This document shows, in pieces, positions 23,163 to 44,625 of a DNA stretch of 64,000 nucleotides. The position numbers were made by a program, and so were the translations under genes. This DNA comes from Novosphingobium sp. FKTRR1. GTDB taxonomy: Bacteria > Pseudomonadota > Alphaproteobacteria > Sphingomonadales > Sphingomonadaceae. The notes beneath the pieces are model-generated. The model saw only the letters and a list, made by a program, of their open reading frames with translations, was not told the DNA's origin and did no database searches. Position 1 is the first letter of the stretch. Every line of letters begins with the position of its first letter. The stretch spans positions 1 to 64,000 of the forward strand of contig NZ_JAIZDA010000014.1 in assembly GCF_020404405.1 (NCBI RefSeq). Direction: 5' to 3'.

Positions 23163-24107
23163 CTACATCGACATGGGCGGCGATAGTGTCCCCAGCCAGG
23201 CGACGAGCCCGAGAATGACGATCGCAAGACCGCCTTCGACGACGAGGCTCGCGCGCAGCAGCGCCTGCGCCCGTGGCGCGTCCTCTTCCTCGATCGCCTG
23301 CGCAAGTGCCGGGGTCAGGCGATAACGGTTGAGCGCGGCCAGGCCCAGCATGCCGGCGAACAGCAGCAGCTTGGCGATGAGCAGCAGGCCGTAGGTCGAC
23401 TGCCCGAGCGAGGCGATGTTGCCCGGACCGACGAGGAACCAGCCGTTCACCGTCCCGGTCAGGATCAGCAGGGCGACGATGATCGTGCCGACGAGGGAGA
23501 AGCCCCGCAACGCTTCCTCGGCGAGCGTGACCCGGTCCATGTCTTGAGCGGCGAGATCGTCGGTTGCGAGCCTGGGAAGTACCAGCGCGAGGAATGCGGC
23601 AAGCGCGCCGACCCAGGCGCCGGCGGCGAGCAGATGGATGAGATCGGCCCCCAGTTGCAGCCAGCCCGCCTCGCCTTCGCCAGCCGCGCCATGCCCACTC
23701 CAGGCGAGGGTCGCGAGTGCGACCGCGCCTGCCAGAGTGGAGGCGATGAAGGCAGGACCGGATTGCCGGCGATAGAAGGGGATGGAGAGCAGAAGAACGA
23801 GGAGCGCGACGAGGCGCGCCTTCAGCGCCGTTCCCATGGACGTGCCGTTGAACAGCTCTGCGACCATGGAAAGATCAGGCTGGGTGAGCGGCAGCCCGGT
23901 CATGGCCGCTGCCTGCAACGCGAACCCCAGCGCCGACAGCAGGAGGGCGAGACAGGCGAGACCGGCCACCATTGCTACCATCGGCAGATGCCGCTGTACC
24001 ATCCGGCCGCCGCCGGGCGCATAGAGCGCGAACAGCGGCAGGCCGAACAACAGGCCGAGATCGACGTAGAGCGCCCAGCGGACGGCGACGAGTGCCACGT
24101 CGTTCAT
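23163..24107 (-). CDS. copD: Copper resistance membrane protein CopD
   Basis: A 314-aa polytopic membrane protein with about eight helices, of the CopD/PcoD family. Conserved features include the central WSGHGAAGEGEAGWLQLGADLIHLLAAGAWVGAL-type region, seen here as LIHLLAAGAWVG, and FAGMLGLAALNRYRLTPAL. CopD works with periplasmic CopC in moving copper across the inner membrane. It starts 4 bp after the copC stop. Confidence 0.92.
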   Translation of the reverse strand: MNDVALVAVRWALYVDLGLLFGLPLFALYAPGGGRMVQRHLPMVAMVAGLACLALLLSALGFALQAAAMTGLPLTQPDLSMVAELFNGTSMGTALKARLVALLVLLLSIPFYRRQSGPAFIASTLAGAVALATLAWSGHGAAGEGEAGWLQLGADLIHLLAAGAWVGALAAFLALVLPRLATDDLAAQDMDRVTLAEEALRGFSLVGTIIVALLILTGTVNGWFLVGPGNIASLGQSTYGLLLIAKLLLFAGMLGLAALNRYRLTPALAQAIEEEDAPRAQALLRASLVVEGGLAIVILGLVAWLGTLSPPMSM

Positions 24108-24111
24108 GGCG

Positions 24112-24489
24112 TCACTTGACGGTAAAGGCGAGATTGCCCTGGATGCGGTGCGTGTCGGTCGAGACGACGTGCCAGGCGACCTGATAGCTGCCCGCCATGA
24201 GCGGCTTGGCGAGCGTCAGCACGAGCGTCTTGTCGCCTTCGACGGACGTCTTGAAGCCGGTTACCGCCATGCGATGGTTGGGCATGCCGGGCATACCGGT
24301 CATCACGATCTCGGCACCCGACAGCCTGGGCATCAGACCTTCGCTGAACGTAAGCGTAATGCGCGAGGGCGCCGAGACGCTGGCATTGGCGGCCGGAGCC
24401 GAGGATACAAGCTTGGGATGGGCATAGGCCGGAGCCGAAACACTCAGGCCTACGATGGCGATAGCTGCGAGAGGCGAAAAGAAACGCAT
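24112..24489 (-). CDS. copC: Periplasmic copper-binding protein CopC
   Basis: A 125-aa protein with a cleavable signal peptide ending near AYA, then mature HPKLVSSAPAANA, whose N-terminal His is part of the Cu(II) site of CopC. The rest is a beta-barrel with VVSTDTHRIQGNLAFTV near the end. A Met-rich bend (MTGMPGMPNHRM) could serve Cu(I). AGGAGA lies before the ATG at 24489. The ECF-type promoter at 24520-24544 ends 30 nt upstream. Confidence 0.95.
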   Translation of the reverse strand: MRFFSPLAAIAIVGLSVSAPAYAHPKLVSSAPAANASVSAPSRITLTFSEGLMPRLSGAEIVMTGMPGMPNHRMAVTGFKTSVEGDKTLVLTLAKPLMAGSYQVAWHVVSTDTHRIQGNLAFTVK

Positions 24490-24519: not shown

Positions 24520-24544
24520 AATACGCAGCCGCGACCTGCACCCC
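24520..24544 (-). promoter_or_regulatory. Putative ECF-sigma promoter A (copC)
   Basis: On the minus strand: GGGGTGC, nine bases, CTGCGTATT. It matches promoter B on the opposite strand, 28 bp away. See the finding on the shared motif. Confidence 0.65.
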
Positions 24545-24572
24545 TCGCAATTTTCTTTTTGTTCCCGGACAA

Positions 24573-24597
24573 GGGTTGCCGGACCATCCTGCGTATT
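24573..24597 (+). promoter_or_regulatory. Putative ECF-sigma promoter B (anti-sigma/sensor/sigma operon)
   Basis: GGGTTGC (24573-24579), nine bases, CTGCGTATT (24589-24597), 24 nt before the first gene of the CnrYXH-like unit. It implies the sigma factor activates its own operon. Confidence 0.65.
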
Positions 24598-24621: not shown

Positions 24622-24894
24622 ATGGACCACCTCGACGACATGCTCAGCCGGTTGCGGGAAGCGCCGCTCGATCCCCGGCTTGCCGGGCTGGACAGCCGCG
24701 TCATGGCCGAGATCGCCCGGCTCCAGGCCATGCCCCGCCTGAGCGCCACGACATTCGGTATCGCCGCGGCAGCAGCCTTGTTCCTGGGAATTGCCGGCTC
24801 GGCCGTGCCTGTGCGGTCGACCGAAGCCGGGCCGATATCGCCCTTTGACGCGCGGCTCGCGCTCGCTCCTTCGACGCTGCTGAGTTCACAATGA
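24622..24894 (+). CDS. CnrY-like membrane anti-sigma factor (predicted)
   Basis: A 90-aa protein: a cytoplasmic, acidic/helical N-terminal part of about 40 residues (DHLDDMLSRLREAPLDPRLAGLD), one membrane helix (TTFGIAAAAALFLGIAGSAV), and a short periplasmic tail. Size, topology and position directly before a CnrX-like sensor and an ECF sigma gene match the anti-sigma CnrY of Cupriavidus. I see no strong sequence signature, so the function is inferred from context. The stop overlaps the next start as ATGA. Confidence 0.7.
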   Translation: MDHLDDMLSRLREAPLDPRLAGLDSRVMAEIARLQAMPRLSATTFGIAAAAALFLGIAGSAVPVRSTEAGPISPFDARLALAPSTLLSSQ

Positions 24895-25331
24895 TGCGCG
24901 ACCGCCGGCTCCTGCTCCTCGTCCTGCTGACCTTTGCCGCGGCGATCGCTGGCGTTGTCATCGGCCGCGTCTATGTGGTTCCGGTGCGCCCGGTCGAAAA
25001 TGAGCTGCACGAGCTGCTCCATCGCGATCTGAAGCTGGATTCCGCGCAACACAGCCGGCTCGAGACAATCGAGAAGAACTACGCCTTACGGCGTCAAGCG
25101 CTGGAGGCCGAACTGCGCGCCGACAATGCGCGCCTCGCGGAGGCGATCGAAGCGGAGCATGGCTATGGCCCGCAAGTCGCAGCGGCGGTGGATCGCTCGC
25201 ACCAGGCCATGGGGGCCCTGCAGAAGGAAACGCTCGAGCACATCTTCGCAATGCGGGCCGTGCTGCGTCCCGATCAGACCGAGAAGTTCGACGACGCCGT
25301 CGTGAAAGCGCTGACGGCCAAGTCCAAATGA
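24891..25331 (+). CDS. CnrX-like periplasmic metal sensor
   Basis: A 146-aa protein with an N-terminal membrane anchor (LLLLVLLTFAAAIAGVVIG) and an all-helical periplasmic domain of the metal-resistance/CnrX type. H40, H44, E61, H117 and M121 reproduce, with a uniform offset of two, the Co/Ni ligands H42, H46, E63, H119 and M123 of CnrX. The site therefore looks intact. Around it are copper genes, so the metal sensed may be Cu rather than Co/Ni. It is overlapped by four bases with genes on both sides, giving an Y-X-H order. Confidence 0.88.
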   Translation: MMRDRRLLLLVLLTFAAAIAGVVIGRVYVVPVRPVENELHELLHRDLKLDSAQHSRLETIEKNYALRRQALEAELRADNARLAEAIEAEHGYGPQVAAAVDRSHQAMGALQKETLEHIFAMRAVLRPDQTEKFDDAVVKALTAKSK

Positions 25332-25894
25332 CCGCGAGCCTCCCCGACTGCTCGGACGGGGAGCTCGCGGCTTTGGCGCTTGGCGGGCGGCAAGCGGCTT
25401 ATGGCGAACTGGTCCGGCGGCATCAAGGTTGGGTTCACCGGCTCGGGCGCAGCCATGTCGGATCTATGGATGAGGCCTTAGATGTCACCCAGGCGAGCTT
25501 CGTCGCGGCCTTTGCCGCACTCAACCGCTATGACGCTGCGCGACCTTTTCCGGTCTGGATGTCCCGGATCGTCATCAACAAATGCCATGACTGGCGGCGC
25601 CGGCGCGCGGTCCGGAACTTCTTCTCCATGGCCCTGCCGCTGGGCGAGGCGGATGACGTCGCCGATGAGGCGCCGCTACCCGACCAGGCAATCGGCGCCG
25701 AGCAGCAACTGGCAGAGGCGATGAAAGCGATCGCCGCCCTGCCCGCCTCTCTCAAGGACACGCTCATCCTGCGGACGATCGACGAGAAGTCGGAAGCCGA
25801 AACCGCCGAGATTCTCGGCATCAGCCAGAAGGCAGTCGAGACCCGCCTCTACCGCGCCCGGGCGCGCCTCGCGGAAATATTGAAGAAAGTTTGA
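25328..25894 (+). CDS. CnrH-like ECF sigma factor
   Basis: A 188-aa ECF-type sigma-70 factor. Region 2 (about residues 20-95) shows YGELVRRHQGWVHRLGRSHV, DVTQASFVAAFAALNRYD and FPVWMSRIVINKCHDWRRRR. Region 4 (about 130-185) shows LPASLKDTLILRTIDEKSEAETAEILGISQKAVETRLYRARARL. The start overlaps the sensor gene as ATGA. By analogy with CnrYXH, the anti-sigma holds it until the sensor binds metal. Five candidate target promoters are in the window. Confidence 0.93.
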   Translation: MTASLPDCSDGELAALALGGRQAAYGELVRRHQGWVHRLGRSHVGSMDEALDVTQASFVAAFAALNRYDAARPFPVWMSRIVINKCHDWRRRRAVRNFFSMALPLGEADDVADEAPLPDQAIGAEQQLAEAMKAIAALPASLKDTLILRTIDEKSEAETAEILGISQKAVETRLYRARARLAEILKKV

Positions 25895-25919
25895 GGGGGA
25901 TGAGGCCACGCTGCGTATT
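25895..25919 (+). promoter_or_regulatory. Putative ECF-sigma promoter C (copA/copB)
   Basis: GGGGGAT (25895-25901), nine bases, CTGCGTATT (25911-25919), starting just after the sigma gene and 42 nt before the copA ATG. The -10-like half is identical with promoters A and B. Confidence 0.6.
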
Positions 25920-25961: not shown

Positions 25962-27890
25962 ATGATTTCTGCTCTCGACCGCCGCCAGTTCCTCCGCGGC
26001 GCGGCCCTCGCCGGCGGCGGCGCAGCATTGTCAGCCTGGCTGCCGGCCTGGGCGCAGACGATCTCGCCGGGGATGCGACCGACGCTGCCGACCGTGTCGG
26101 GCGAAGACATCACGCTCACCATCGCCCGGCAGTCGATGACCATCGACGGGCGCAAGTTCCGGGCAATCGGCCTCAACGGCACGGTCCCCGCCCCGCTGAT
26201 CCGGCTGCGCGAGGGCCAGCGCGTGCGGCTCAACGTCATCAATCAGCTCGAGGAAGACAGCTCAATCCACTGGCACGGGCTGTTGGTTCCGGCGAAACAC
26301 GACGGCGTGCCGGGCGTCTCCTTCCCCGGCATCAAGCCCGGCAGCAGCTATCTGTATGATTTTCCGGTGATGCAGAACGGTACCTACTGGTATCACAGCC
26401 ATTCGGGCCTGCAGGAGCAAGAAGGCCATTACGGGCCGATCATCATCGACCCGGCGGGCACCGATCCGGTCGCCTATGACCGCGAACATGTCATCGTATT
26501 GGCCGATCACAGCGCGCTGTCACCGCAGGCGATCTTCCGTCGCCTCAAGGTCAATCCCGGCCATTTCAACTTCCAGCGCCAGACGCTGGCCGGACTTCTG
26601 TCTGGCAAGGACCAGCCGCTCAAGGATCGGCTCGACTGGGGCCAGATGCGCATGGACCCGACCGACATCTCCGATGTGACCGGATCGACCTACACCTATC
26701 TCGTCAACGGCCACGGTCCCATGGACAACTGGACTGCGCTCTTCACCCCGGGCGAGCGGGTGCGGCTGCGCGTCATCAATGCCTCGGCGATGACCACCTT
26801 CAATGTCCGCATTCCCGGCCTGCCCCTGAGCATCGTTCAGGCCGACGGGCAGAATGTGATGCCGGTCAGCGTCGACGAATTCCAGATCGGCGTCGCCGAG
26901 ACCTACGATGTCATCGTAACGCCTAGCGAAGATAAGGCCTACACGCTCGTCGGCGAGGCAATCGATCGTTCCGGCATGGCGCGCGCGACGCTGGCGCCGC
27001 GGGCCGGCATGGCCGGCGAGGTGCCGCCGCTGCGCAAACGGCCGCTCGCCGACATGAAGGACATGGGCATGGACATGTCCTCGATGTCCGGCATGGAGGG
27101 CATGGACATGTCGGGCGGCACGACGCGGGGCGTCGATCCGACTGCCGAAAAGAACGCATCTGCCCGCCTCGCAACCGGTGCGGGGGCCGCGATGGCGTCC
27201 GGCATGGAGCAAGGCGCCATGGGAGACATGGACCACTTGGGGATGGATCACTCGTCGATGGCGGGCATGGACCACGGGGCGATGGGCGCCGATGGCCAGA
27301 TGGCGGGCATGGATCATGGCGGGCACGCGATGGGCTCGATGAAGATGCGCGACTTCTCGAATGCGCCCCAGGTGAAGCGCGACCCGAGCGTCCAGACCAT
27401 CTCGCCGATGCCCGTAGACCGCACCGGCGAGCCCGGCCAGGGCCTCGCCGACGTCGGCCACAAGGTGCTTGTCTACAGGGACCTGATGGCGCTCGATCGC
27501 AATCCGGACGTGCGCGCGCCGAGCCGCAGCATCGACATTCACCTCACCGGCAACATGGAGCGGTTCATGTGGTCGTTCGACGGCGAAAAAATGTCGGACC
27601 ATCACGAGCCGATCCCCTTCATCGAAGGCGAGCGGGTGCGCGTCAATCTCATCAACGACACGATGATGGGGCATCCGATCCATATTCACGGGCATTTTTT
27701 CGAGCTGGTGACGGGGCATGGCGATCATGCGCCGCGCAAGCATACGGTGATCGTCCAGCCCGGCGGCAAGGTGACCTGGGACTTCACCGCCGACGCGGTC
27801 GGCGACTGGGCCTTCCACTGTCATCTCCTCTACCACATGCATGCAGGGATGATGCGGGTCGTGAGCGTCCGTCCGAAGGGAGACGCGTAA
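25962..27890 (+). CDS. copA: Multicopper oxidase CopA (periplasmic)
   Basis: A 642-aa Tat-exported multicopper oxidase of the CopA/PcoA family, which oxidises Cu(I) and sequesters copper in the periplasm. RRQFLRGAALAGGG is the twin-arginine signal. Copper-site motifs are HWHG (H103/H105), HSHSG near residue 147, HPIHIHGHFF near 575 and HCHLLYHMHAGMM near 620, the last with the type 1 Cys-His-Met set. Residues about 360-455 form a long Met/His-rich insert (MGMDMSSMSGM type) for binding extra copper. It runs into copB with a one-base overlap (TAATG). Confidence 0.95.
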   Translation: MISALDRRQFLRGAALAGGGAALSAWLPAWAQTISPGMRPTLPTVSGEDITLTIARQSMTIDGRKFRAIGLNGTVPAPLIRLREGQRVRLNVINQLEEDSSIHWHGLLVPAKHDGVPGVSFPGIKPGSSYLYDFPVMQNGTYWYHSHSGLQEQEGHYGPIIIDPAGTDPVAYDREHVIVLADHSALSPQAIFRRLKVNPGHFNFQRQTLAGLLSGKDQPLKDRLDWGQMRMDPTDISDVTGSTYTYLVNGHGPMDNWTALFTPGERVRLRVINASAMTTFNVRIPGLPLSIVQADGQNVMPVSVDEFQIGVAETYDVIVTPSEDKAYTLVGEAIDRSGMARATLAPRAGMAGEVPPLRKRPLADMKDMGMDMSSMSGMEGMDMSGGTTRGVDPTAEKNASARLATGAGAAMASGMEQGAMGDMDHLGMDHSSMAGMDHGAMGADGQMAGMDHGGHAMGSMKMRDFSNAPQVKRDPSVQTISPMPVDRTGEPGQGLADVGHKVLVYRDLMALDRNPDVRAPSRSIDIHLTGNMERFMWSFDGEKMSDHHEPIPFIEGERVRVNLINDTMMGHPIHIHGHFFELVTGHGDHAPRKHTVIVQPGGKVTWDFTADAVGDWAFHCHLLYHMHAGMMRVVSVRPKGDA

Positions 27891-29008
27891 TGACCCGCAT
27901 CCTCACGCCGCTGGTGAGCGCGATCGCCCTTTTCGCTGCCGCGCCCGCCTTTGCCCAGGATCATTCGATGCACGGCATGCCCGGCATGGCGCCGCCGGGC
28001 GAAGTGGCGCCGGCGCAGGAGAAGAAGAAGGACAAGGCCGCCGCCAGGCCGCGCGCTCAGACACCAGCGCCGGACGCCACCTCGGCGATGGACCATTCGC
28101 AGCACCAGGCCAGTCCTGCGCCGCAGGGAGATGCGGCCGGTCAGCCGCAACCCGCGTCTCCCGCGATGCCGGAGATGCCGGGTATGGACCATTCGCAGCA
28201 TGGCCAGACAACGATGCCGGGAATGCCCGCCATGCCCGGCATGCAAATGACCGGCACGGCGCTTCCGGCCGGCAATGCGCCCCCGCCGCCTCCCCCAAGC
28301 GACCACTTCGCCGATCGTGATTTTCCCGGCGGCGAGATGGCGCGCTCGCGCGACATCATGATGAAGGATAGCGGCGGCAACAATTTCGGGCAGGTGCTGC
28401 TCAACGTGTTCGAGTATCAGGCGCATAGCGGCCGCGATGGCTATCGCTGGGATGGCGAAGGCTTTTACGGCGGCGACATCAACCGGCTCTGGCTCAAGAG
28501 CGAGGGCGAAGGCGAGTTCGGCCGCGGCATCGACAGCGCCGAGGTGCAGGTGCTCTACAGCCGGGCCATCGACCCCTATTTCAATCTTCAGGGCGGTATC
28601 CGCCAGGACTTCGGCCGCGGGCCCGACCGCACCTACGCGACGATCGGCGTCGAGGGCCTGGCTCCTGGCATGTTCGAGGTCGAAGGCGCGCTGTTCCTCT
28701 CGACCAAGGGCGATGTTCTGGGCCGGGTCGAGGGCTATTACGACCAGCGCATCACCCAGCGCCTGATCTTGCAGCCGCGCGCCGAGGTCAATTTCGCCGC
28801 GCAGGATATTCCGGAGAACGACATCGGTTCGGGGCTGGTCAACATAGAGCTCGGCGCGCGCCTGCGCTACGAATTCAGCCGCCAGTTCGCACCTTACATC
28901 GGCGTTTCCTATCTGCGCAAAGCCGGAGACACGGCGCGGCTGTCGAGGCTTGCGGGCGAGGACGTCCATGCCACCAGCTTCGTCGCCGGCGTTCGCTTCT
29001 GGTTTTAG
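27890..29008 (+). CDS. copB: Copper resistance outer-membrane protein CopB
   Basis: A 372-aa protein with a signal peptide (residues 1-22), a Met/His/Pro-rich copper-binding region to about residue 140 (repeats of the MDHSQH and MPGMPAMPGM type), and a beta-barrel domain (VLLNVFEYQAHSGRDGYRWDG ... SRQFAPYIGVSYLRK) ending in Trp-Phe. CopB binds copper at the outer membrane. The ATG at 27890 overlaps the copA stop, which favours it over any longer frame. Confidence 0.95.
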   Translation: MTRILTPLVSAIALFAAAPAFAQDHSMHGMPGMAPPGEVAPAQEKKKDKAAARPRAQTPAPDATSAMDHSQHQASPAPQGDAAGQPQPASPAMPEMPGMDHSQHGQTTMPGMPAMPGMQMTGTALPAGNAPPPPPPSDHFADRDFPGGEMARSRDIMMKDSGGNNFGQVLLNVFEYQAHSGRDGYRWDGEGFYGGDINRLWLKSEGEGEFGRGIDSAEVQVLYSRAIDPYFNLQGGIRQDFGRGPDRTYATIGVEGLAPGMFEVEGALFLSTKGDVLGRVEGYYDQRITQRLILQPRAEVNFAAQDIPENDIGSGLVNIELGARLRYEFSRQFAPYIGVSYLRKAGDTARLSRLAGEDVHATSFVAGVRFWF

Positions 29009-29098: not shown

Positions 29099-29572
29099 AT
29101 GGACCATTCGTCCCACATGAACACCCGGAAGATGGGTGCCTATTGGAGCCTTGCCGTTCAGACCGTCATCAGCGGCGTCATCATGTATCTGGTGATGTTC
29201 GTCATGATCGACGGGCTCGACAGCTTCTACAACAACCTCAACATGCTCTACATGACGCTGATGATGGTCGCACCGATGGTGGTGCTGATGATCCTCGCCA
29301 TGCGACACATGTTCGTGTCGAAGGCCGCCAACATCGCGCTGATCGCCGCGTCGCTGGTCGCCTTCTTCGGCAGCTTTGCACTCATCCGCACCCAGACCAC
29401 GATCGGCGACACGGCCTTTCTGCGCTCGATGATCCCGCATCATTCCGGGGCGATCCTGATGTGCCAGGAAGCAAAGCTCAGCGATCCGGAAGTCATCCGG
29501 CTTTGCGAAGCGATCAAGCGCTCGCAGCGGCAGGAAATCGACGAGATGAAGGCCATACTCGCGCGGCGCTGA
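29099..29572 (+). CDS. DUF305 membrane protein
   Basis: A 157-aa protein with three membrane helices in its first 100 residues and a C-terminal DUF305 segment (FLRSMIPHHSGAILMCQEAKL ... IKRSQRQEIDEMKAIL). The His pair and Met/Cys residues in MIPHHSGAILMC could bind copper. DUF305 proteins recur in copper and silver islands, but their action is undefined. GGAGATACGCC precedes the ATG. It follows copB by 90 bp. Confidence 0.85.
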   Translation: MDHSSHMNTRKMGAYWSLAVQTVISGVIMYLVMFVMIDGLDSFYNNLNMLYMTLMMVAPMVVLMILAMRHMFVSKAANIALIAASLVAFFGSFALIRTQTTIGDTAFLRSMIPHHSGAILMCQEAKLSDPEVIRLCEAIKRSQRQEIDEMKAILARR

Positions 29573-34423: not shown

Positions 34424-35013
34424 TCGTGCGAGGCGCGAGCTGCACGCCCGCGCGCCGACCGGGACACAGCAAGCATTTTTCGCAACCTGCCGTACTGCCC
34501 AGCGGCAAAATCAGGGCGGCTCATGCACAAGCCGGCCCGTCGGCTCCGCGGATGCGATCGACGTTCGAGGACTGCGCCGCCACTGCCGAACCGGATTGGA
34601 TCATCGCCAAGTGACCCAGTGGCTGCGCGACGATCTCAGGTCGCCGGACTCGTCGCACGACGTTTCGTCAGGAGTCGTTTCATCTGCCTCAAAAGGCGAA
34701 CCTGCGGCTCAATCCGGAAGAAGGCGCGACACATCCAGGAAACGAGGATCAAATGCGGTCCGCATCGGTATTACTTTCCCTGGCGCGTGCAAGCTCAGCA
34801 AAGGACTAATGTTCCCGGAGCATCTCTAGCGCTATACCTAGGTATATCACGCCGACACCAATAACATGTGATCATGCCGCTTCGCATTCTTGCCGGCCAA
34901 ATGTCCCGATCATCAAATCGAAGCGTGCGAGGCTGTATTACGATATGATATTCTATCTCCTATCTCAGCAGCTTTACAAATGAGCGCTCGCAAAAATATC
35001 TCTTCAGTCATGA

Positions 35014-35038
35014 GGGTTCGACGTCTGGCGTGCGTATT
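35014..35038 (+). promoter_or_regulatory. Putative ECF-sigma promoter D (TonB receptor)
   Basis: GGGTTCG (35014-35020), nine bases, GTGCGTATT (35030-35038): same spacing as promoters A-C. It would leave an unusually long leader of about 120 nt before the receptor ATG. Confidence 0.45.
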
Positions 35039-35106
35039 ATAGCTATATCTATATCTAAATTTCACGAGAATAAGGTATTGGAAAAACAGGAAAAATACTG
35101 TTGACC

Positions 35107-35116
35107 TGTATATACA
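35107..35116. promoter_or_regulatory. HutC-type operator candidate before the TonB receptor
   Basis: TGTATATACA is a perfect 10-bp palindrome directly after a TTGACC -35-like hexamer (35101-35106), 46 nt before the receptor ATG. HutC-subfamily GntR repressors are known to bind TGTA-N2-TACA type sites, and such a repressor is encoded at 39314. Confidence 0.55.
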
Positions 35117-35161
35117 ACTGATGTTGTCTGTGGCTGTTCTAAAACGTCAGGGGGATTGCAC

Positions 35162-37864
35162 ATGACCATCAGGATGGCCCTGCTCGGCAGCGCCGCCATC
35201 GTCGCGGGCTACGCCGCGCCGGCTCTCGCTCAGGCCGATCCGACACCGCAGCCAAAAGCACAAGTCCTGGGGGATGACAGCGACATCGTCGTTACCGGCT
35301 CACGAATCCGTCGGCAGGATCTGGCCGGGGTTGGACCGGCCACCGTGGTCACCGCCGAGCAGATCCAAAATACCGGCATCGTCAATATCGAAACCGCCTT
35401 GCAGCGTTTGCCGGCCAATGCCGGCTTCGCGGGCAACCAGACATCGGCCTACTGGACCAACAACGGTTATGGCACTGCTCAGGTCAATCTGCGCGGCCTC
35501 GGCATCAAGCGCACACTCGTGCTCCTCAACGGCCGACGCCTCGTCGCGGGCGGCACCGGCGCCAATTCCTCACCCGATCTCAACATGATCCCGGTCGTGG
35601 CGCTGGCACGCACCGATGTCCTCAAGGATGGCGCGTCCGCTATCTACGGGGCCGATGCCATGGCCGGCGTGGTCAACCTTGTCACGCGCACCGATTATGA
35701 AGGCCTGGGTCTCAGCGTCCGACAAGGCATTACCGAGCGCGGCGACGGCTCCGATCTCACCGCGGACCTACTTTGGGGCATTCGCAACGATCGTGGCGGG
35801 TTCATGGCAGCAGTCACCTACCAGAAGACCAGCGCCGTCAACATGGCCTCGCGTGCGCCCTGCTCGCTCGCTGAAACGACGCCGGGCTCGCTGAGCTGCG
35901 TCAACAGCGCCTCGACGATCGGCGGACGCGCGGTGCTGCCCAACGGCCAACAGATCAACTTCAACCAGGTACCCGGAGGGAACGGGAACTTCTACGAGCC
36001 TTACAGTCCCGCCAAGCACAACTTCAACTCGAACCCGTTTCTCAATGCGGTCAGCCCAGTCGAGCGCGTCAGCACGGCCTTCTTCGCGGACTATGCGCTG
36101 ACCGACGGTATCCAGGCGTTCGGCGAGTTCCTCTATACGTTCCGCAAGTCGAATCAGATCGCTACACCCGGCACGCTGCGCAATCTCTCAATACCAGCCA
36201 GCAATCCGACCAATCCGACCGGCCAGAACCTGGTCCTGGCCCAGCGCCGCCTCGCCGAACCCGGCGCGCGCCACTTCTTCCAGGAGACCGATACCTGGCA
36301 AGGCACCTTCGGGCTGCGCGGCAAGCTGGCGAACGACTGGGCCTGGGAAGTCGCGGGCAGCTTCGGGCGTAACACGGCCGTCGACGGCTCGACCAACATC
36401 GCCAATCTCGAGCGCGTCGCGAACACGCTCGACAGGAGCAAATGCTCCAGCACGGCGGGCGCGGCCATCCCCTGCGGTGACTATCTTGGGTTCGGAGACC
36501 TGACACCTCAGGTTCTGGATTATATTCTGTTCACCTCGCGCGATCGCGGAGGCAACGAACTCGGCACGGTCACGGCTGACCTCAACGGCGATCTCTTCTC
36601 CCTTCCAGCCGGCGCGGTGTCCTTCGCCACCGGCGTGGTCTATCGGCGCGAAAAAGGCTGGCGCGATCCCGACCCGTTGACGGTGCTCGGCGTGGCGAAC
36701 GTCAATCAGCAGGATCCTATTTCGGGCTCGAGCACCGCCAAGGAAGCCTATCTCGAGCTATCGGTGCCGGTGCTTGCCAACACAGCTTTCGCCAAGGCGC
36801 TCACGCTCGATGGCGCAGTCCGCTACTCAGACTATAATCTCTTCGGGAGCGACTGGAATTACAAGCTCAGTGCCGACTGGGTAGTCAATGACAGCATCCG
36901 TCTGCGCGGCACTTATGGGACGGGCTTTCGCATTCCCAACGTGCCGGAGCTTTTCGGCGGCGTCTCGGAAGGCAATCTGACCACGACCGATCCCTGCTCG
37001 CGCTACACCTCCAGCGGCAACGTGACCTTGATCGCCAATTGTCAGGCGTCCGGTGTGCCGGCCAACTATACGCAGCTCGGCACCACGATCCTCACCACAG
37101 TGGGCGGTAACCAGAGCCTTCGGCCCGAAAGCTCCACGACCTGGACCGTTGGTACGGTGATATCGCCGCGCGGCATCATCCCAGGGTTGTCGCTGACGGC
37201 AGACTGGTTCGACATCAAGATCAAGGACGCGATCCGGGCCATTCCCGGCTCGACCAAGCTCGCAGTCTGCTATGCGAGCCAGAACCTGTCGCACCCGTTC
37301 TGCAGCGACTTTACGCGCAGCGCGCTGACCGGCGAGGTCACTTACCTCTCCGCCCAGCCCATCAACACCGGCCGCGAGGAGATGAATGGTCTCGATCTGG
37401 GTCTGGTGTACAGTGGTGCGGTGGGCGAGGTGAAGATCTCCTTGGATCTCAACATGACCTATCTCAACAAATATGTCGTAAACCCCTTCCCCGGCGGCGC
37501 GCCGATCTATTTCGACGGGTTTATCGGGGGCGGCAATGGCGGCTATCCGAAATGGCGTGGTTATGGCGTGCTGACGGCGGAAAAGGACGGCATCAGCGCG
37601 ACCTGGTCGACACAATGGATCGGCAAGGCGACCGACTTCAACGCATCGGCCGGCGACATCGGCTACCGCACGCCGAACGTCTTCTACCACAATCTTCAGC
37701 TTGCCTTCGCGATCGACGAGAAGACACGTTTCCAGATCGGGGCCGATAATCTGTTCGACCGCAAGGCGCCCTATATCCAGAGCTTCACCGATGCCAACAC
37801 CGACACGATGACCTATGATCTGCTCGGACGGCGCTTCTACGCCGGCTTCCGAACCGCGTTCTGA
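35162..37864 (+). CDS. TonB-dependent outer-membrane receptor
   Basis: A 900-aa outer-membrane transporter. A signal peptide ends near ALAQA, a TonB-box-like segment (DIVVTGSRI) precedes the plug (QIQNTGIVNIETALQRLPANAG; GLGIKRTLVLLNGRRL; KDGASAIYGADAMAGVVN), and a long beta-barrel ends in Phe. The substrate is not evident. The linked PepSY proteins and metal genes favour a metal chelate, and the HutC-like repressor points to a histidine-related ligand; both are inference. The ATG at 35162 is preferred over a TTG two codons earlier. Confidence 0.92.
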   Translation: MTIRMALLGSAAIVAGYAAPALAQADPTPQPKAQVLGDDSDIVVTGSRIRRQDLAGVGPATVVTAEQIQNTGIVNIETALQRLPANAGFAGNQTSAYWTNNGYGTAQVNLRGLGIKRTLVLLNGRRLVAGGTGANSSPDLNMIPVVALARTDVLKDGASAIYGADAMAGVVNLVTRTDYEGLGLSVRQGITERGDGSDLTADLLWGIRNDRGGFMAAVTYQKTSAVNMASRAPCSLAETTPGSLSCVNSASTIGGRAVLPNGQQINFNQVPGGNGNFYEPYSPAKHNFNSNPFLNAVSPVERVSTAFFADYALTDGIQAFGEFLYTFRKSNQIATPGTLRNLSIPASNPTNPTGQNLVLAQRRLAEPGARHFFQETDTWQGTFGLRGKLANDWAWEVAGSFGRNTAVDGSTNIANLERVANTLDRSKCSSTAGAAIPCGDYLGFGDLTPQVLDYILFTSRDRGGNELGTVTADLNGDLFSLPAGAVSFATGVVYRREKGWRDPDPLTVLGVANVNQQDPISGSSTAKEAYLELSVPVLANTAFAKALTLDGAVRYSDYNLFGSDWNYKLSADWVVNDSIRLRGTYGTGFRIPNVPELFGGVSEGNLTTTDPCSRYTSSGNVTLIANCQASGVPANYTQLGTTILTTVGGNQSLRPESSTTWTVGTVISPRGIIPGLSLTADWFDIKIKDAIRAIPGSTKLAVCYASQNLSHPFCSDFTRSALTGEVTYLSAQPINTGREEMNGLDLGLVYSGAVGEVKISLDLNMTYLNKYVVNPFPGGAPIYFDGFIGGGNGGYPKWRGYGVLTAEKDGISATWSTQWIGKATDFNASAGDIGYRTPNVFYHNLQLAFAIDEKTRFQIGADNLFDRKAPYIQSFTDANTDTMTYDLLGRRFYAGFRTAF

Positions 37865-37874
37865 AGGGCAGCAC

Positions 37875-38579
37875 ATGGCAATTCGCTGGCCTTTGGTCAT
37901 CCGCCGGACGCACAAGTGGCTGGCCCTGATCGTCGGCGTCCAGGTTCTGCTCTGGACGCTGACCGGCTTCTATATGGTGGCCGTCCATATCGACATCATC
38001 CATGGCGACGATCTGGTCCGCCCACCGGTCGTCGCCCCCATCGACCTTGCGAGCTTCGTCCCGCCGGCGCGGATTGTTCAATCGGCTCCCGACGCGTCCG
38101 AGATCCGCCTGCAACGGTTCATGGATCAGCCCGTCTGGCGCGCGCAAACCTCGGGTGGTCCAAGACTCTTCGATGCAGGTTCGGGACAGCCCATCCCCGA
38201 TTTGAGCGAGGCACAAATCCGCGCCGCCGCTCGGCGCATCTACAGCGGCACCGGGGACATCGTCGCAGCCCGGCTGCTGACGACGGCGCCACTGGAAATG
38301 CAGGCGCGCAAGCCTCCCTATTGGCAGGTCGAATTCGATGCCTGGAACCGGCCAACCCTGTATCTCTCTCCGCAGACCGGTGAGCTGATCTCGCGCCGCC
38401 ATGCGCTGTGGCGCGTGTTCGATTTCGCGTGGATGCTGCACATCATGGACTATGACGATCGCTCCGACGTCAACAATCCGCTGCTGCGCGTGGCGACCTG
38501 GAGTGCCCTTGCCATGGCGCTGGCCGGGGCTTGGCTGCTGCTTTGGTCGTTCCCGCGGCGCAGGAAGAAGAAGGCATGA
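37875..38579 (+). CDS. PepSY-domain membrane protein 1
   Basis: A 234-aa inner-membrane protein with an N-terminal helix after RRTHKWLALIVG, a PepSY-like periplasmic domain (residues about 45-185), and a C-terminal helix preceded by HIMDYDD. Members next to TonB receptors are often linked to reduction or processing of imported metal chelates. It begins 10 bp after the receptor gene and overlaps the next gene as ATGA. Confidence 0.82.
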   Translation: MAIRWPLVIRRTHKWLALIVGVQVLLWTLTGFYMVAVHIDIIHGDDLVRPPVVAPIDLASFVPPARIVQSAPDASEIRLQRFMDQPVWRAQTSGGPRLFDAGSGQPIPDLSEAQIRAAARRIYSGTGDIVAARLLTTAPLEMQARKPPYWQVEFDAWNRPTLYLSPQTGELISRRHALWRVFDFAWMLHIMDYDDRSDVNNPLLRVATWSALAMALAGAWLLLWSFPRRRKKKA

Positions 38580-39310
38580 AGAAAATCCGGTTCACCCCGC
38601 TCTTTTTTCGGCGCATCCACAAATGGGTCGGCCTGATCCTGGGCGTGCAGTTTCTCCTTTGGGCTCTGAGCGGCTCGATGATGGCCTTGCTCGATCAGGA
38701 GAAGGTCGGCGGACACAGTGCGCAGGCCAGCCATCAGCACGCCCTACCTGCCGGTGACTATATTGCGCCGGCAAAGCTCGCTCTTGATGGTCCCGTGCTC
38801 GGCATCGCCTTGCGGTCCCTTGCCACACGCCCCGTCTACGAGCTTCGATCCACCACGGGCACGCGGCTAATCGACGCGACGAGCGGCGCCCCGGTTCGGG
38901 TCGACGAGCAGGTCGCGCGCGACGTCGCGACGATGGTGAATGAAGCACCGATCCGCAAGGCAACGTTGCTCGCCGAACCGAATGTGGAAGCGCGCGAGCA
39001 CGAAGGCACCATGTGGCGACTGGATTTCGCGGACGCAGAGAACAGCAGCGCCTACATCTCCGCCGACACCGGCCGATTCCTGGTCATGCGCGGCGACACA
39101 TGGCGCACCTGGGATTTCTTCTGGATGCTCCACAATATGGACTATGTGAACCGCACCAGCTTCAATCACCCGCTGATCGTCTTCGTTGCGTTCGGTACTT
39201 TGTGGCTGTCGGGGACGGGCTTCTACCTGCTGTTTAAGAGCTTCAGTCGCGCCGACGTGCGATGGTTGCGGCGCAGGCGCAAATCGGCCGTCAAGTTGGG
39301 CGCGGGCTGA
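38576..39310 (+). CDS. PepSY-domain membrane protein 2
   Basis: A 244-aa paralogue of the previous protein with the same plan: RRIHKWVGLILG and a membrane helix, a periplasmic domain, HNMDYVNRTSFNHPL, and a second helix (IVFVAFGTLWLSGTGFYLLF). The paired His residues near each membrane helix could bind haem or metal. The two PepSY genes are coupled and probably act as a heterodimer. Confidence 0.82.
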   Translation: MKKIRFTPLFFRRIHKWVGLILGVQFLLWALSGSMMALLDQEKVGGHSAQASHQHALPAGDYIAPAKLALDGPVLGIALRSLATRPVYELRSTTGTRLIDATSGAPVRVDEQVARDVATMVNEAPIRKATLLAEPNVEAREHEGTMWRLDFADAENSSAYISADTGRFLVMRGDTWRTWDFFWMLHNMDYVNRTSFNHPLIVFVAFGTLWLSGTGFYLLFKSFSRADVRWLRRRRKSAVKLGAG

Positions 39311-40194: not shown

Positions 40195-40632
40195 TCAATG
40201 CCGCGCGAAGACCTTCTGGCCCGAACTGCCGAACGACACCACCGCATAGGGTTGGCGGGCGGCGCCTGCCACTTCCATGCCCTCCGAGCCGATCGGCATC
40301 CCCGCCACCGCAATGCCTCTGACGCCTACGGGACGGGTTGCCAGCAGGCGCTTGATATCGGCGACCGGGACATGGCCCTCGATCAGATAGCCATCAACCA
40401 TCGCGCTGTGGCAGGATGCCAGCGTGCCCGGCATGCCGGCCCTCCGCTGAAGCGCCCCGCGCGACGCATCGTCGCGCATGACGACCGTGCGGCCCAGCTT
40501 CGCGCGAAGCGCCTGGGCCCACTTCTCACAGCATCCACAACCCGGGTCCCGGTGGACGACGACATCATTCGCCGCAAGCGCTGCGCCGGGCAGGGCGAGG
40601 AACAGCAAGGCGGCAGAAAGACGGGTCTTCAT
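40195..40632 (-). CDS. DUF411 periplasmic metal-binding protein
   Basis: A 145-aa exported protein (signal peptide residues 1-20) with the DUF411 features HRDPGCGCCEKW near residue 30, VMRDDAS, MPGTLASCHSAMVDGYLIEGHVP and RGIAVAGMPIGSEGM. The CGCC and CH residues probably bind copper or silver. DUF411 proteins recur in copper and cation efflux clusters. It has its own ECF-type promoter (40673-40697). Confidence 0.9.
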   Translation of the reverse strand: MKTRLSAALLFLALPGAALAANDVVVHRDPGCGCCEKWAQALRAKLGRTVVMRDDASRGALQRRAGMPGTLASCHSAMVDGYLIEGHVPVADIKRLLATRPVGVRGIAVAGMPIGSEGMEVAGAARQPYAVVSFGSSGQKVFARH

Positions 40633-40672: not shown

Positions 40673-40697
40673 TATACGCATTGATGCCCCCTACCCC
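40673..40697 (-). promoter_or_regulatory. Putative ECF-sigma promoter E (DUF411 gene)
   Basis: On the minus strand: GGGGTAG, nine bases, ATGCGTATA, ending 40 nt before the DUF411 start. Spacing is the same as in promoters A-D. It lies between the MFS stop and the DUF411 gene. Confidence 0.55.
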
Positions 40698-40700
40698 TCA

Positions 40701-41942
40701 TCACGCTGAAGATTTCACGATGGCGCGCGGCCTCCAGGCGAGCGGCAAGGACACAAGCAGCGCCAGCGACAGACCACCAATCCCCCACAAGACTAAGTGC
40801 TGCGCCCCGGGAGCGACGACGGCGATCGCCAGCGGCGCGAGCGCCTGCCCGATGCTGGCGGCGGAATGCTGGAGACCGAGCTTCAGACCCGAAGGGGCTG
40901 CCGCACCGCTGATCCAGAAGCTGGTAACCAATCGAAGGGTTGCCGAGCTCCAGCCGGCAGCAACGATGATCCCACTGAGTTCGGCCATGCTCGCGGCGAC
41001 AGGGAACAGGAAGAGCGCCGCAGCCAGCAGGCCGAGCGTCAGCCCCGCAAGCCGCCTCGGCATGGTCACCAGCCAATCGAGCCTCGCATGGAAGATCTGT
41101 GCTGCCAGCATGCCCAATCCGCAGAGACTGAGCATCCAGGCGATCTCTTCGCGGCTCAGCGAAATGACGCTCCGCGTCACCAGGAGATTGACATGCATCG
41201 CCGCCAGCCCGCCGCCCGCGACGATCGTGACGAAAAGCAGGATCAGCGTCGCGCCGAGCGTCGGCGCGGGCAGGTCTCCGCCATCGATGCAAGGTGCACA
41301 CCAGCGCGGCAGACGCACGGCGCAAAGCGCCGCCCCGACGGCACCGATGCCGAAAGCGAGGATCATGAGGGGAGCGCGGGGCAGGATCGCGGCCGAGACC
41401 TCCGCCACCAGCGGACCGGCGAGATCGCCCAGAAACAAGAAGGCGGTCAGCCAGGTGAAGCGCCGCGCCTGGTCCGCGCGCTCGTTTGCGGCAAAGCTCG
41501 CGCAGAGCAAGCCCAACGGTATGATGGCGGCCGACGCCATCCCCGCCACCAGGCGCAATGCATAAAGCTCAGGCAGCCCGACGAGGCCGATCGGCGCGGT
41601 CACCAGGGCGAGGATGACCAGCGCTGCGCGCAACATCGCCCGATAGTCGACCCGGTCCGCGATCCAGCCCCAGAGCGGCGCCGCCAGCAAGGCTGCCAGG
41701 GGATGGACCGCGGTCAGGCTCGCGACATGAAAATCATGAGCGCTTGACGATAGCGCGCCACGAGCCGGGTCGACCAGTGCCGGAAGGAAGGCGAGAATGG
41801 CCGTCTGTCCCGCCGACGCCGCAGCCGCCGCGAGCAACAAGACGAAAAAGGAGGCCGGCCAGCGACCGTTGGCTTGCGATCCAGCCTTGTCACGCGGCGC
41901 GTTCGCGGTCGACCCCTCGAGTGGCCATCCGCGGATCACCAC
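40701..41942 (-). CDS. MFS transporter
   Basis: A 413-aa transporter with about twelve hydrophobic helices and an MFS-like loop (PLWGWIADRVDYRAML) after helix 2. It resembles the drug-efflux (DHA) group, but the substrate is unknown. It starts with GTG at 41942 and overlaps the copB stop by seven bases, so it belongs to the copA/copB operon, which would make a role in copper or chelator transport plausible. Confidence 0.8.
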   Translation of the reverse strand: MVIRGWPLEGSTANAPRDKAGSQANGRWPASFFVLLLAAAAASAGQTAILAFLPALVDPARGALSSSAHDFHVASLTAVHPLAALLAAPLWGWIADRVDYRAMLRAALVILALVTAPIGLVGLPELYALRLVAGMASAAIIPLGLLCASFAANERADQARRFTWLTAFLFLGDLAGPLVAEVSAAILPRAPLMILAFGIGAVGAALCAVRLPRWCAPCIDGGDLPAPTLGATLILLFVTIVAGGGLAAMHVNLLVTRSVISLSREEIAWMLSLCGLGMLAAQIFHARLDWLVTMPRRLAGLTLGLLAAALFLFPVAASMAELSGIIVAAGWSSATLRLVTSFWISGAAAPSGLKLGLQHSAASIGQALAPLAIAVVAPGAQHLVLWGIGGLSLALLVSLPLAWRPRAIVKSSA

Positions 41943-42922
41943 CAGGCGCGCAAGCCGATCACCAGCCGGTGTTCGGATGACCCCTCGCCCCGCAGGCGTC
42001 GGAAGCCCGCCGTGCCATCGAACGCGCGCTCCCAGACGAAGCCGATATAGGGCGCGAACTTGCGCGACACCTCGTAGCGCAACCGTCCGCTCAGCTCGAC
42101 ATTGCTGAAGCCGCTGCCGAGCTGCCGATCGCTCGACCGCTTCGAATAGATATTGGTCTCCACCTGCGGCGTAAGGATCAACCGATTGGTGAACAAGACC
42201 TCATAGGACGCCTTGGCGCGCGCCGCGAGACGCCCATCGGTTCCTACATAGCCGGTGAGCTGGACGTCGAACCAATAGGGCGCCAGTCCCTCGACGCCGG
42301 CGGCCAGCCAGGTGGTCGCACCCTTGCCGAGATCCTGCCTGACCCCGAGCAGCGTGCCCCAGAACGGGTTCTTGCTGTGCCACCACAGCGCCTCGACGCT
42401 GCTCTCCGGATCGAGACGTTGGTCGCGGGAGTTCTTGAGCCCCTGGCTGCGCAGCCAGAGCTTGTCATTGTCCTGACCCTTGGTGACGAGCACGGTCCAG
42501 CCCACGCCCTGACCCTCGTTGCCGCTGGTGAACTCAAGCTCATCGACAAGTATCTTGGGGATTGAGAGCTTGTCGGCCATCTCATAGCCCGGCAGCGTCG
42601 AGTTGCGGTAGCCGTCGGCATAATCGTCCGAGTTGCGCGCGTCCGGCGGGGCCTGGCCGCCCTGCATCGAGCCCATGTCCATCGTGGCGCCGTTACCGGA
42701 CGCCTTCGTGTCGGTCATATCCATGCCCGGCATGTCCATGCCCGCATGGTCCTGAGAGCCTTGCGCGGAAGGGGTGTGCTGAGCGGGAGTGGCCGTTTGG
42801 GCAGGGGTGGCGGCGGGCGACGGGGGCGAGGCATCCTGCGCGAGGGCGGGAGCCGTGATCGCCGGCGCCAGGAAGAGGGCAGCGCCAAGAGCGATGCCGC
42901 GCGAGGGGAAAATCCGGATCAT
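41936..42922 (-). CDS. copB: CopB-like outer-membrane copper protein, second copy
   Basis: A 328-aa protein with a signal peptide, a Gln/Ala/Met-rich binding region to about residue 90 (GMDMPGMDM; MDMGSMQGG), and a beta-barrel domain (ELEFTSGNEGQGVGWTV ... KFAPYIGFVWERAFDG) ending Trp-Trp. It is shorter and less His-rich than the copy at 27890. The ATG overlaps the copA stop as ATGA. Confidence 0.92.
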   Translation of the reverse strand: MIRIFPSRGIALGAALFLAPAITAPALAQDASPPSPAATPAQTATPAQHTPSAQGSQDHAGMDMPGMDMTDTKASGNGATMDMGSMQGGQAPPDARNSDDYADGYRNSTLPGYEMADKLSIPKILVDELEFTSGNEGQGVGWTVLVTKGQDNDKLWLRSQGLKNSRDQRLDPESSVEALWWHSKNPFWGTLLGVRQDLGKGATTWLAAGVEGLAPYWFDVQLTGYVGTDGRLAARAKASYEVLFTNRLILTPQVETNIYSKRSSDRQLGSGFSNVELSGRLRYEVSRKFAPYIGFVWERAFDGTAGFRRLRGEGSSEHRLVIGLRAWW

Positions 42923-44625
42923 GCGACCACCACCTCCCGGAACATGCCGGCCGCCATGTGATAGAGCAGATGGCAGTGGAAGGCCCATCGGCCCATGGCG
43001 TCGGCGGTGACGCGGAAGCTCACCCGCTGGGCGGGCTGGACCACGACCGTATGCTTGCGGACCTGGAAGGCGCCGTCCGGGCCTTCGACATCGCTCCACA
43101 TGCCGTGCAGATGCATCGGATGCGCCATCATCGTGTCGTTGACGAAGGTGACGCGCAGCCGCTCGTTTGGCTTGAAATGAAGCGGCCTGGAATCGTTGAG
43201 CTTGATGCCGTCGAGCGACCAGATGAACCGTTCCATATTGCCCGTCAGATGCAGCTCGATGTCGCGCTCGGGCTCGCGCGGGTCGGGATCGCCGCCCGGC
43301 GTGCGCAGATCGGCCAGCGTCAGCACGCGCCAGCCGCGCCCGCGCAGCCCGGCGCCGGGATCGTCGAGATTGGTGCGCGGATAGTCGACGCGCATGTCGG
43401 TATTGGCGCCATATTCGGTGCGGGCGTGCCGTGCCCTGGCCGGCATCTCGGTCATGCCGTGCCCGGCATGCGCGTCGCCTCCCATTGCGCCCATCGTCGC
43501 CATCGCGCCCATCATGTCGACCGGCTCGAGCCAGGTCCGGGCATCGAGCGGCGGCACGGCTGCCGCCATGCCCGGGGCCGGTGCGATCGTGCCACGCGCA
43601 TAGCCGCTCCGATCGATCGCCTGCGCGAAGATGGTGCGGGCGCCGCCCTCGGGCATGGTGAACTCGACGTCGTAGGTCTCGCCCGGGCCGATCCGGAATT
43701 CCTCGACCGTGACCGGCTCGACCGGCTGCCCGTCGGTCGATACGACCGTCAGCTCGACCCCGGGGATCCGCACGTCGAAGAACGTCGCCGTCCCCGCGCC
43801 GACGAAGCGCAGGCGCACGCGCTCGCCGGGCGCGGCGATACCGGTCCAGTTGCCGGCGGGCGGCGCGCCGTTCATCAGATAGGTGTAGGTCGCGGCAGAG
43901 ACATCGCTGTAGTCGGTCGGGTTCATCCGCGAGCTGTTCCACATCCGCCGCCGCTCGAGCGCCTTGCCCAAGCCCATGGTGCCGACATCCTTGAGGAAAT
44001 CGCCGGCGGTCGGCTGCGCAAAATTATAGTAGCTGCTCTGCTTCTTGAGATTGAGGAAGATCTGCAGCGGCGGCTCGTCCGACCAGTCGCTGAGCACGAT
44101 GCAATAGTCGCGATCGGGCGCCCGCGCCGTCGGCACCTGTTTTGGCTCCACGATGATCGCTCCATAGAGTCCCGTCTGCTCGGCGAGCGTGTGAGCGTGA
44201 TACCAGTAGGTTCCGCTCTGGCGGACCTCGAAGCGATAGGTGAAGGTCTCGCCCGGCGCGATGCCGGCAAAGCTGATGCCGGGCACGCCGTCCATCTCCG
44301 CCGGCACGATGATGCCGTGCCAATGGATGCTCGACATCTCCTTGAGGCCGTTGCGTACGCGCAGCGTGACCGTGTCGCCTTCGCGCAGGCGCAGGACCGG
44401 CGCGGGCACGCTGCCGTTCACGGCGGTCGCGATACGGCGTTTGCCGGTGAAGTTGACCGGCAGCTCGGCGATCTCGAGGTCGAACTCGGTCCCGCTCAGC
44501 TCAGCGGGCAAGGTTGGTGCGGATCGCGCGAGAAGCGCCGGGGCGAAACCGGCGACCGCGCCGCCGATCGCCAGCCCCTGGACGAAACGGCGCCGCGCGA
44601 TCGGCCGGATATGTAAGGGAGACAT
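42919..44625 (-). CDS. copA: Multicopper oxidase CopA, second copy
   Basis: A 568-aa multicopper oxidase with a Tat-type signal (ARRRFVQGLAIGG). Copper motifs are HWHG, YHAHT, HPMHLHGMW and HCHLLYHMAAGMF. The Met/His-rich insert near residue 400 is much shorter than in the copy at 25962 (GDAHAGHGMTEM). I chose ATG 44625; a longer frame to 44808 runs antisense through adh. It lies 25 bp after the alcohol dehydrogenase gene. Confidence 0.95.
   Translation of the reverse strand: MSPLHIRPIARRRFVQGLAIGGAVAGFAPALLARSAPTLPAELSGTEFDLEIAELPVNFTGKRRIATAVNGSVPAPVLRLREGDTVTLRVRNGLKEMSSIHWHGIIVPAEMDGVPGISFAGIAPGETFTYRFEVRQSGTYWYHAHTLAEQTGLYGAIIVEPKQVPTARAPDRDYCIVLSDWSDEPPLQIFLNLKKQSSYYNFAQPTAGDFLKDVGTMGLGKALERRRMWNSSRMNPTDYSDVSAATYTYLMNGAPPAGNWTGIAAPGERVRLRFVGAGTATFFDVRIPGVELTVVSTDGQPVEPVTVEEFRIGPGETYDVEFTMPEGGARTIFAQAIDRSGYARGTIAPAPGMAAAVPPLDARTWLEPVDMMGAMATMGAMGGDAHAGHGMTEMPARARHARTEYGANTDMRVDYPRTNLDDPGAGLRGRGWRVLTLADLRTPGGDPDPREPERDIELHLTGNMERFIWSLDGIKLNDSRPLHFKPNERLRVTFVNDTMMAHPMHLHGMWSDVEGPDGAFQVRKHTVVVQPAQRVSFRVTADAMGRWAFHCHLLYHMAAGMFREVVVA

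Follow-up and report, generated by a model that had tools for sequence, protein, structure and literature searches.

The 146-residue protein encoded between Y and the ECF sigma factor gene of the window (the whole stretch of 64,000 nucleotides analyzed here) is a periplasmic sensor of the CnrX type, and the three genes together probably form a copper-dedicated counterpart of CnrYXH, rather than a link between copper defense and Co/Ni. This reading is favored because cop genes lie near the homologues (copA in 188/235, nearly always together with copB, and another cop marker gene only in 22/235), because an HxxM pair in the sensor, H104/M107, is invariant outside the cnr clade, and because a promoter-like element recurs before copper genes. 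Judging from the homologues compared, the system is a copper variant of the known CnrX-type kind and not an ortholog of the Co/Ni regulator cnr/ncc; the five metal ligands shared with CnrX do not DISCRIMINATE, H104/M107 do.

The sensor belongs among the CnrX-type sensors, as domain, fold, ligands, and the Y-X-H operon all fit. Its Metal_resist domain (PF13801) scored 88.2 bits (cut-off 29.2), and its significant solved relatives were CnrX/NccX entries only (phmmer, E 9e-20 to 4e-18). Residues 37–143 aligned with CnrX without a gap (42/107 identical; 39%), which placed H40, H44, E61, H117, and M121 opposite H42, H46, E63, H119, and M123 of CnrX at a constant offset of two. The one-to-one match that the earlier note had drawn between these residues and the Co/Ni ligands is, thus, borne out. 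An AlphaFold model built from 32 relatives (mean pLDDT 83) displayed the helix pattern of CnrX. Superposition onto Zn-CnrX (2y3d) gave a Z score of 14.1 and 1.6 Å over 109 residues, pairing model residues 34–143 with chain residues 36–145, which is again an offset of two; the structural alignment, named beforehand as the test of the match, therefore yielded no arrangement contradicting it. Proteins other than CnrX reached a Z score of about 10 at most; among these fold neighbors are the stress proteins Spy, CpxP, and ZraP.

The genes are arranged in the order Y-X-sigma-copA-copB, with copCD divergent (Table 1); the ORFs of Y and X, and those of X and the sigma factor, overlap. The sigma gene was located 3′ of X in 186 of 187 homologues. 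CnrH is by far the best solved relative of the sigma factor, whose 188 residues end beyond region 4 (last residue of the Pfam match, 181), without a Cys-rich C-terminal extension. Pairwise comparison of Y with CnrY resulted in no alignment; the first 36 residues of Y gave a weak profile match to the N-terminus of CnrY (probability 76%), which weakly supports homology of the two. Downstream of the regulators are copA and copB, and cnrCBA-type efflux genes were not present there; a heavy-metal P-type ATPase and CueR are encoded farther out, past the cop genes. The models for CopA (TIGR01480), CopB, CopC, CopD, and CueR confirm what had been said of the neighborhood before, namely, that it consists of copper genes. 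A second copB (41936–43942 and beyond, minus strand) has an MFS gene and DUF411 as neighbors; comparison with a plasmid locus of S. sanxanigenens (L316) places a second multicopper oxidase gene beside it, and no promoter-like element directly precedes this region. Plasmids of Novosphingobium, S. koreensis, and S. sanxanigenens encode the sensor with 100% identity, and because these belong to different genera, the module moves between species.

Table 1. Features of the regulatory locus and its surroundings (positions within the window, except where a contig is given).
Feature	Position	Strand	Remarks
CopD membrane protein	23163..24107	-	NF033808
CopC periplasmic copper protein	24112..24489	-	NF033814
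Promoter-like element AGGG-N16-CGTATT	24520..24545	-	30 nt before copC
Promoter-like element	24572..24597	+	24 nt before Y
Y, CnrY-like candidate anti-sigma factor, 90 aa	24622..24894	+	Position, size, one membrane segment, APSTLL in short tail
CnrX-type periplasmic metal sensor (X), 146 aa	24891..25331	+	One N-terminal membrane helix, hooked helical hairpin
H40 codon (CnrX H42)	25008..25010	+	105/107 representatives; Asp in two
H44 codon (CnrX H46)	25020..25022	+	Invariant among 107 representatives
E61 codon (CnrX E63)	25071..25073	+	Invariant among 107 representatives
H104-x-x-M107, HxxM motif on helix 3	25200..25211	+	Clade-specific; Glu and Ala in CnrX
H117 codon (CnrX H119)	25239..25241	+	Invariant among 107 representatives
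M121 codon (CnrX M123)	25251..25253	+	104/107 representatives; Ile or Val in three
ECF sigma factor, CnrH-like	25328..25894	+	39% identity; best solved relative CnrH 4cxf, E 1.4e-29
Promoter-like element	25894..25919	+	Between sigma gene and copA
CopA, copper-resistance multicopper oxidase	25962..27890	+	TIGR01480
CopB outer-membrane copper protein	27887..29008	+	PF05275
DUF305/CopM-like protein	29099..29572	+	Below CopM cut-off
Promoter-like element	35013..35038	+	Before TonB receptor (35156–37864) and two PepSY genes; also on S. sanxanigenens plasmid
Promoter-like element	40674..40698	-	41 nt before DUF411 gene (40195–40632); also on S. sanxanigenens plasmid
Promoter-like element, outside the window	C8:74675–74700 (L312)		21 nt before Cys/His-rich 115-aa ORF with DUF326 match

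For comparison, 235 homologues were taken from fetched loci (the neighbor calls for some come from 1.5-kb flanks), and 107 representatives less than 80% identical, with pairwise identities down to 30%, were selected. Beside those near cop genes, 13/235 had no copper marker gene in the flanking DNA read, and 12/235 (6 distinct proteins) adjoined cnrCBA-type genes. The latter take up one side of the tree by themselves (support 100), with the sensor of the window outside, and tree and gene neighborhoods together indicate a large copper-linked CnrX branch in sphingomonads and relatives. The complete five-ligand set was present in 227 of the 235 homologues (of the eight that do not have it, four are rows with truncations or gaps). 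Other Metal_resist (PF13801) proteins, sampled across the phylum, either did not match the subfamily profile or missed the ligand set, which argues that the set in the subfamily is more than chance. H90 (with H54) was considered as an additional ligand and dropped; only 79% of the representatives have H90.

The earlier note had taken the five ligands for the telling feature; this did not hold up, as they occur in almost every copper-linked and in every cnr-linked member. CnrX itself was solved in Cu, Co, Ni, and Zn forms, according to the titles of the structure entries, and in C. metallidurans CH34, the entire cnr cluster is induced by copper shock (PMC7563307). Because of this shared set, the range of metals CnrX takes, and the induction of cnr by copper, the five ligands are to be expected in this subfamily and are silent on Cu versus Co/Ni; that they alone mark a Co/Ni sensor is ruled out by the copper-linked members having the same set. 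One genome (G983) encodes five sensor copies, including copper-linked ones with His and Met and cnr-linked ones with Glu and Ala at positions 104 and 107; at L229 (G983:C1), two divergent copies lie within 1.5 kb, with no copA or copB in the stretch read.

H104 and M107 occurred in 223/223 homologues outside the cnr clade, Glu and Ala in 12/12 of the cnrCBA-linked ones. The pair is among the 12 invariant positions of the representatives and, thus, steadier than the ligands H40 and M121. The methionine of CnrX at the position of M121 is needed for Ni/Co signaling (PMC7689651). Three lineages do not have it and still have copAB and H104/M107. Since M121 was lost in some members, and H104/M107 never in these samples, the copper branch apparently tolerates loss of the signaling methionine but not of the HxxM pair. 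Four copper-linked loci (L171, L181, L224, and L226), in which M121 is replaced by Ile or Val or H40 by Asp and H104/M107 are intact, represent natural variants for asking which residues count. Because the cnr-type members are few (6 distinct) and form one clade, the contrast between His/Met and Glu/Ala amounts to one evolutionary event, and the difference could be due to descent alone.

In the model, helix 3 comprises residues 94–124, and H104 and M107 are three residues apart on it. Reckoned from helix position, they would be about 15–25 Å away from the five-ligand site, and for this reason probably take no part in it within one chain; completion of that site by the pair was, accordingly, set aside as unlikely. 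In peptides of SilE, helical HxxM is a binding site for Ag(I) (PMC10080550); a second site of the sensor, for a monovalent metal, is thereby conceivable. SilE differs from the sensor in being disordered and in acting as a sponge in which HxxM occurs many times, and the likeness is a lead, not a test. As a feature of the copper branch, H104/M107 most likely tunes the sensor for copper and may do so by forming a second site that prefers Cu(I). That such a site outside the five-ligand pocket is what sets the copper branch apart from the nickel branch, with metal identity read by the added site and the first-shell ligands unchanged, can be proposed only tentatively and is, on balance, rather doubtful.

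A promoter-like element was spotted by eye before Y, copA, and copC in the strict form AGGG-N14-TGCGTATT, which had four matches in 4.98 Mb, the fourth also in the window, and zero when reversed. It caught only 25–36% of the sites per place and was, therefore, replaced by AGGG-N16-CGTA[TA]. The latter was found before Y in 77/107, before copC in 65/107, and before copA in 63/106 representatives, which means that, with each of the three places taken singly, about 30–40% of the loci have no exact copy there. Within 6 kb, 205 of 245 copies fell at the three expected places, which make up ∼2% of the sequence searched. Spacing was 16 in 206 matches and rarely otherwise; at cnr-type loci, it was 17 in 8/9. 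CnrH-dependent transcription starts were mapped 24–25 nt before cnrY and cnrC of C. metallidurans (PMC9045368), where the element reads AGGG-N17-CGTATA.

In the genome of the window, the looser AGGG-N16-CGTAT occurred 11 times, as compared with 17 times in the reversed control, so that only the clustering is striking: six of the 11 copies belong to the contig that contains the window (C8, 116 kb), each just before a gene (Y, copC, copA, TonB-PepSY, DUF411, and DUF326). Five of these six precede copper-system genes, and one precedes the TonB-receptor/PepSY operon. The DUF326 match (four-helix copper-binding type) makes a protein of the copper-storage type likely. The TonB receptor and PepSY genes (35013–39310, with the element in front) recur in the same arrangement on the S. 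sanxanigenens plasmid (L316), which suggests that an outer-membrane transporter is part of the copper regulon. A seventh copy, on another contig (C4:44791–44815; L317), lies 43 nt before a TonB-receptor-like ORF. No copy was found close before the RND efflux genes located in the genome, nor before a recognizable Co/Ni efflux gene. The earlier note had left two alternatives, a site sensing Cu or a cell tying its copper defenses to Co/Ni. The first is favored, in that the system would serve copper; the second is disfavored by the element preceding copper and TonB-receptor genes and no recognizable Co/Ni efflux gene. Neither H104/M107 nor the promoter element, the features that discriminate, appeared in that note.

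By analogy with CnrYXH, a rise in periplasmic copper would lead to copper binding by the periplasmic sensor domain of X, which is held by its one-helix anchor and would retain the five CnrX ligands, which together could accept several metals. Copper-bound X would loosen the small membrane anti-sigma factor candidate Y, which, in turn, would release the ECF sigma factor. The latter is predicted to start transcription at AGGG-N16-CGTAT of its own operon, copAB, and copCD, and, further in this genome, of the TonB-receptor/PepSY operon, the DUF411 gene, and the DUF326 gene.

Alternatively, X could respond broadly, either to several divalent metals or to envelope stress that metals induce, with H104/M107 being structural (dimer or hairpin packing) and uninformative on the metal. 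The various metal forms of CnrX, the induction of cnr by copper shock, and the stress proteins among the fold neighbors are consistent with this, and exchanges of Glu for His and Ala for Met that separate two clades can have arisen neutrally; however, an invariant His and Met at 30–45% overall identity amid copper genes would be unusual for packing residues, which renders this explanation unlikely. That X senses Co/Ni like CnrX and a rise in either switches on the copper defenses as cross-protection would agree with the identity of all five ligands, the same fold, and the signaling methionine being kept in 104/107 representatives, but is very improbable given that copper and TonB-receptor genes, and no recognized Co/Ni efflux gene, make up the predicted targets, that the copper setting is kept across two alphaproteobacterial families, and that three lineages lost the methionine yet keep copAB and the HxxM pair.

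CnrX is the standard case of a periplasmic sensor acting through an ECF sigma factor, and its metal discrimination is still debated. The two branches, which sometimes occur in one genome, agree in fold and in the five ligands and have almost identical promoters; one adjoins Ni/Co efflux genes, the other copper genes. As they are set apart by the His-Met pair, a small number of further fixed residues, and a single base in the spacing of the promoter, selectivity becomes directly testable. Plasmid-borne copper resistance in sphingomonads may, moreover, have in this system a main switch that has so far gone unstudied. Public annotation of its parts reads periplasmic heavy metal sensor and RNA polymerase sigma factor, and no description of the copper-linked CnrYXH branch, the HxxM signature, or the predicted regulon was found in the searchable literature (subscription papers were outside the search).

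With CnrYXH of Cupriavidus metallidurans and NccYXH, the system shares the overlapping Y-X-H genes, the CnrX fold, the five ligands, a CnrH-like sigma factor, a one-helix Y, and AGGG...CGTAT-type promoters before the regulator operon and the first structural gene. In contrast to CnrYXH, which drives cnrCBAT, copAB and copCD are the predicted targets here; the sensor contains H104/M107 instead of Glu/Ala and Q129 instead of His, promoter spacing is 16 instead of 17, and Y is hardly alignable with CnrY. In the two-component systems CusRS, CopRS, and PcoRS, periplasmic sensing also controls cop genes, but via a histidine kinase and a response regulator, whereas a sigma factor and an anti-sigma candidate are encoded here. 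An ECF sigma factor serving copper genes is also found in CorE of Myxococcus xanthus, the only one among ECF sigma factors named in a review of copper signaling (PMC10141476). The metal-binding part of CorE is a Cys-rich extension of the sigma factor itself (PMC10141476), whereas the system described here encodes a separate membrane sensor and an anti-sigma candidate.
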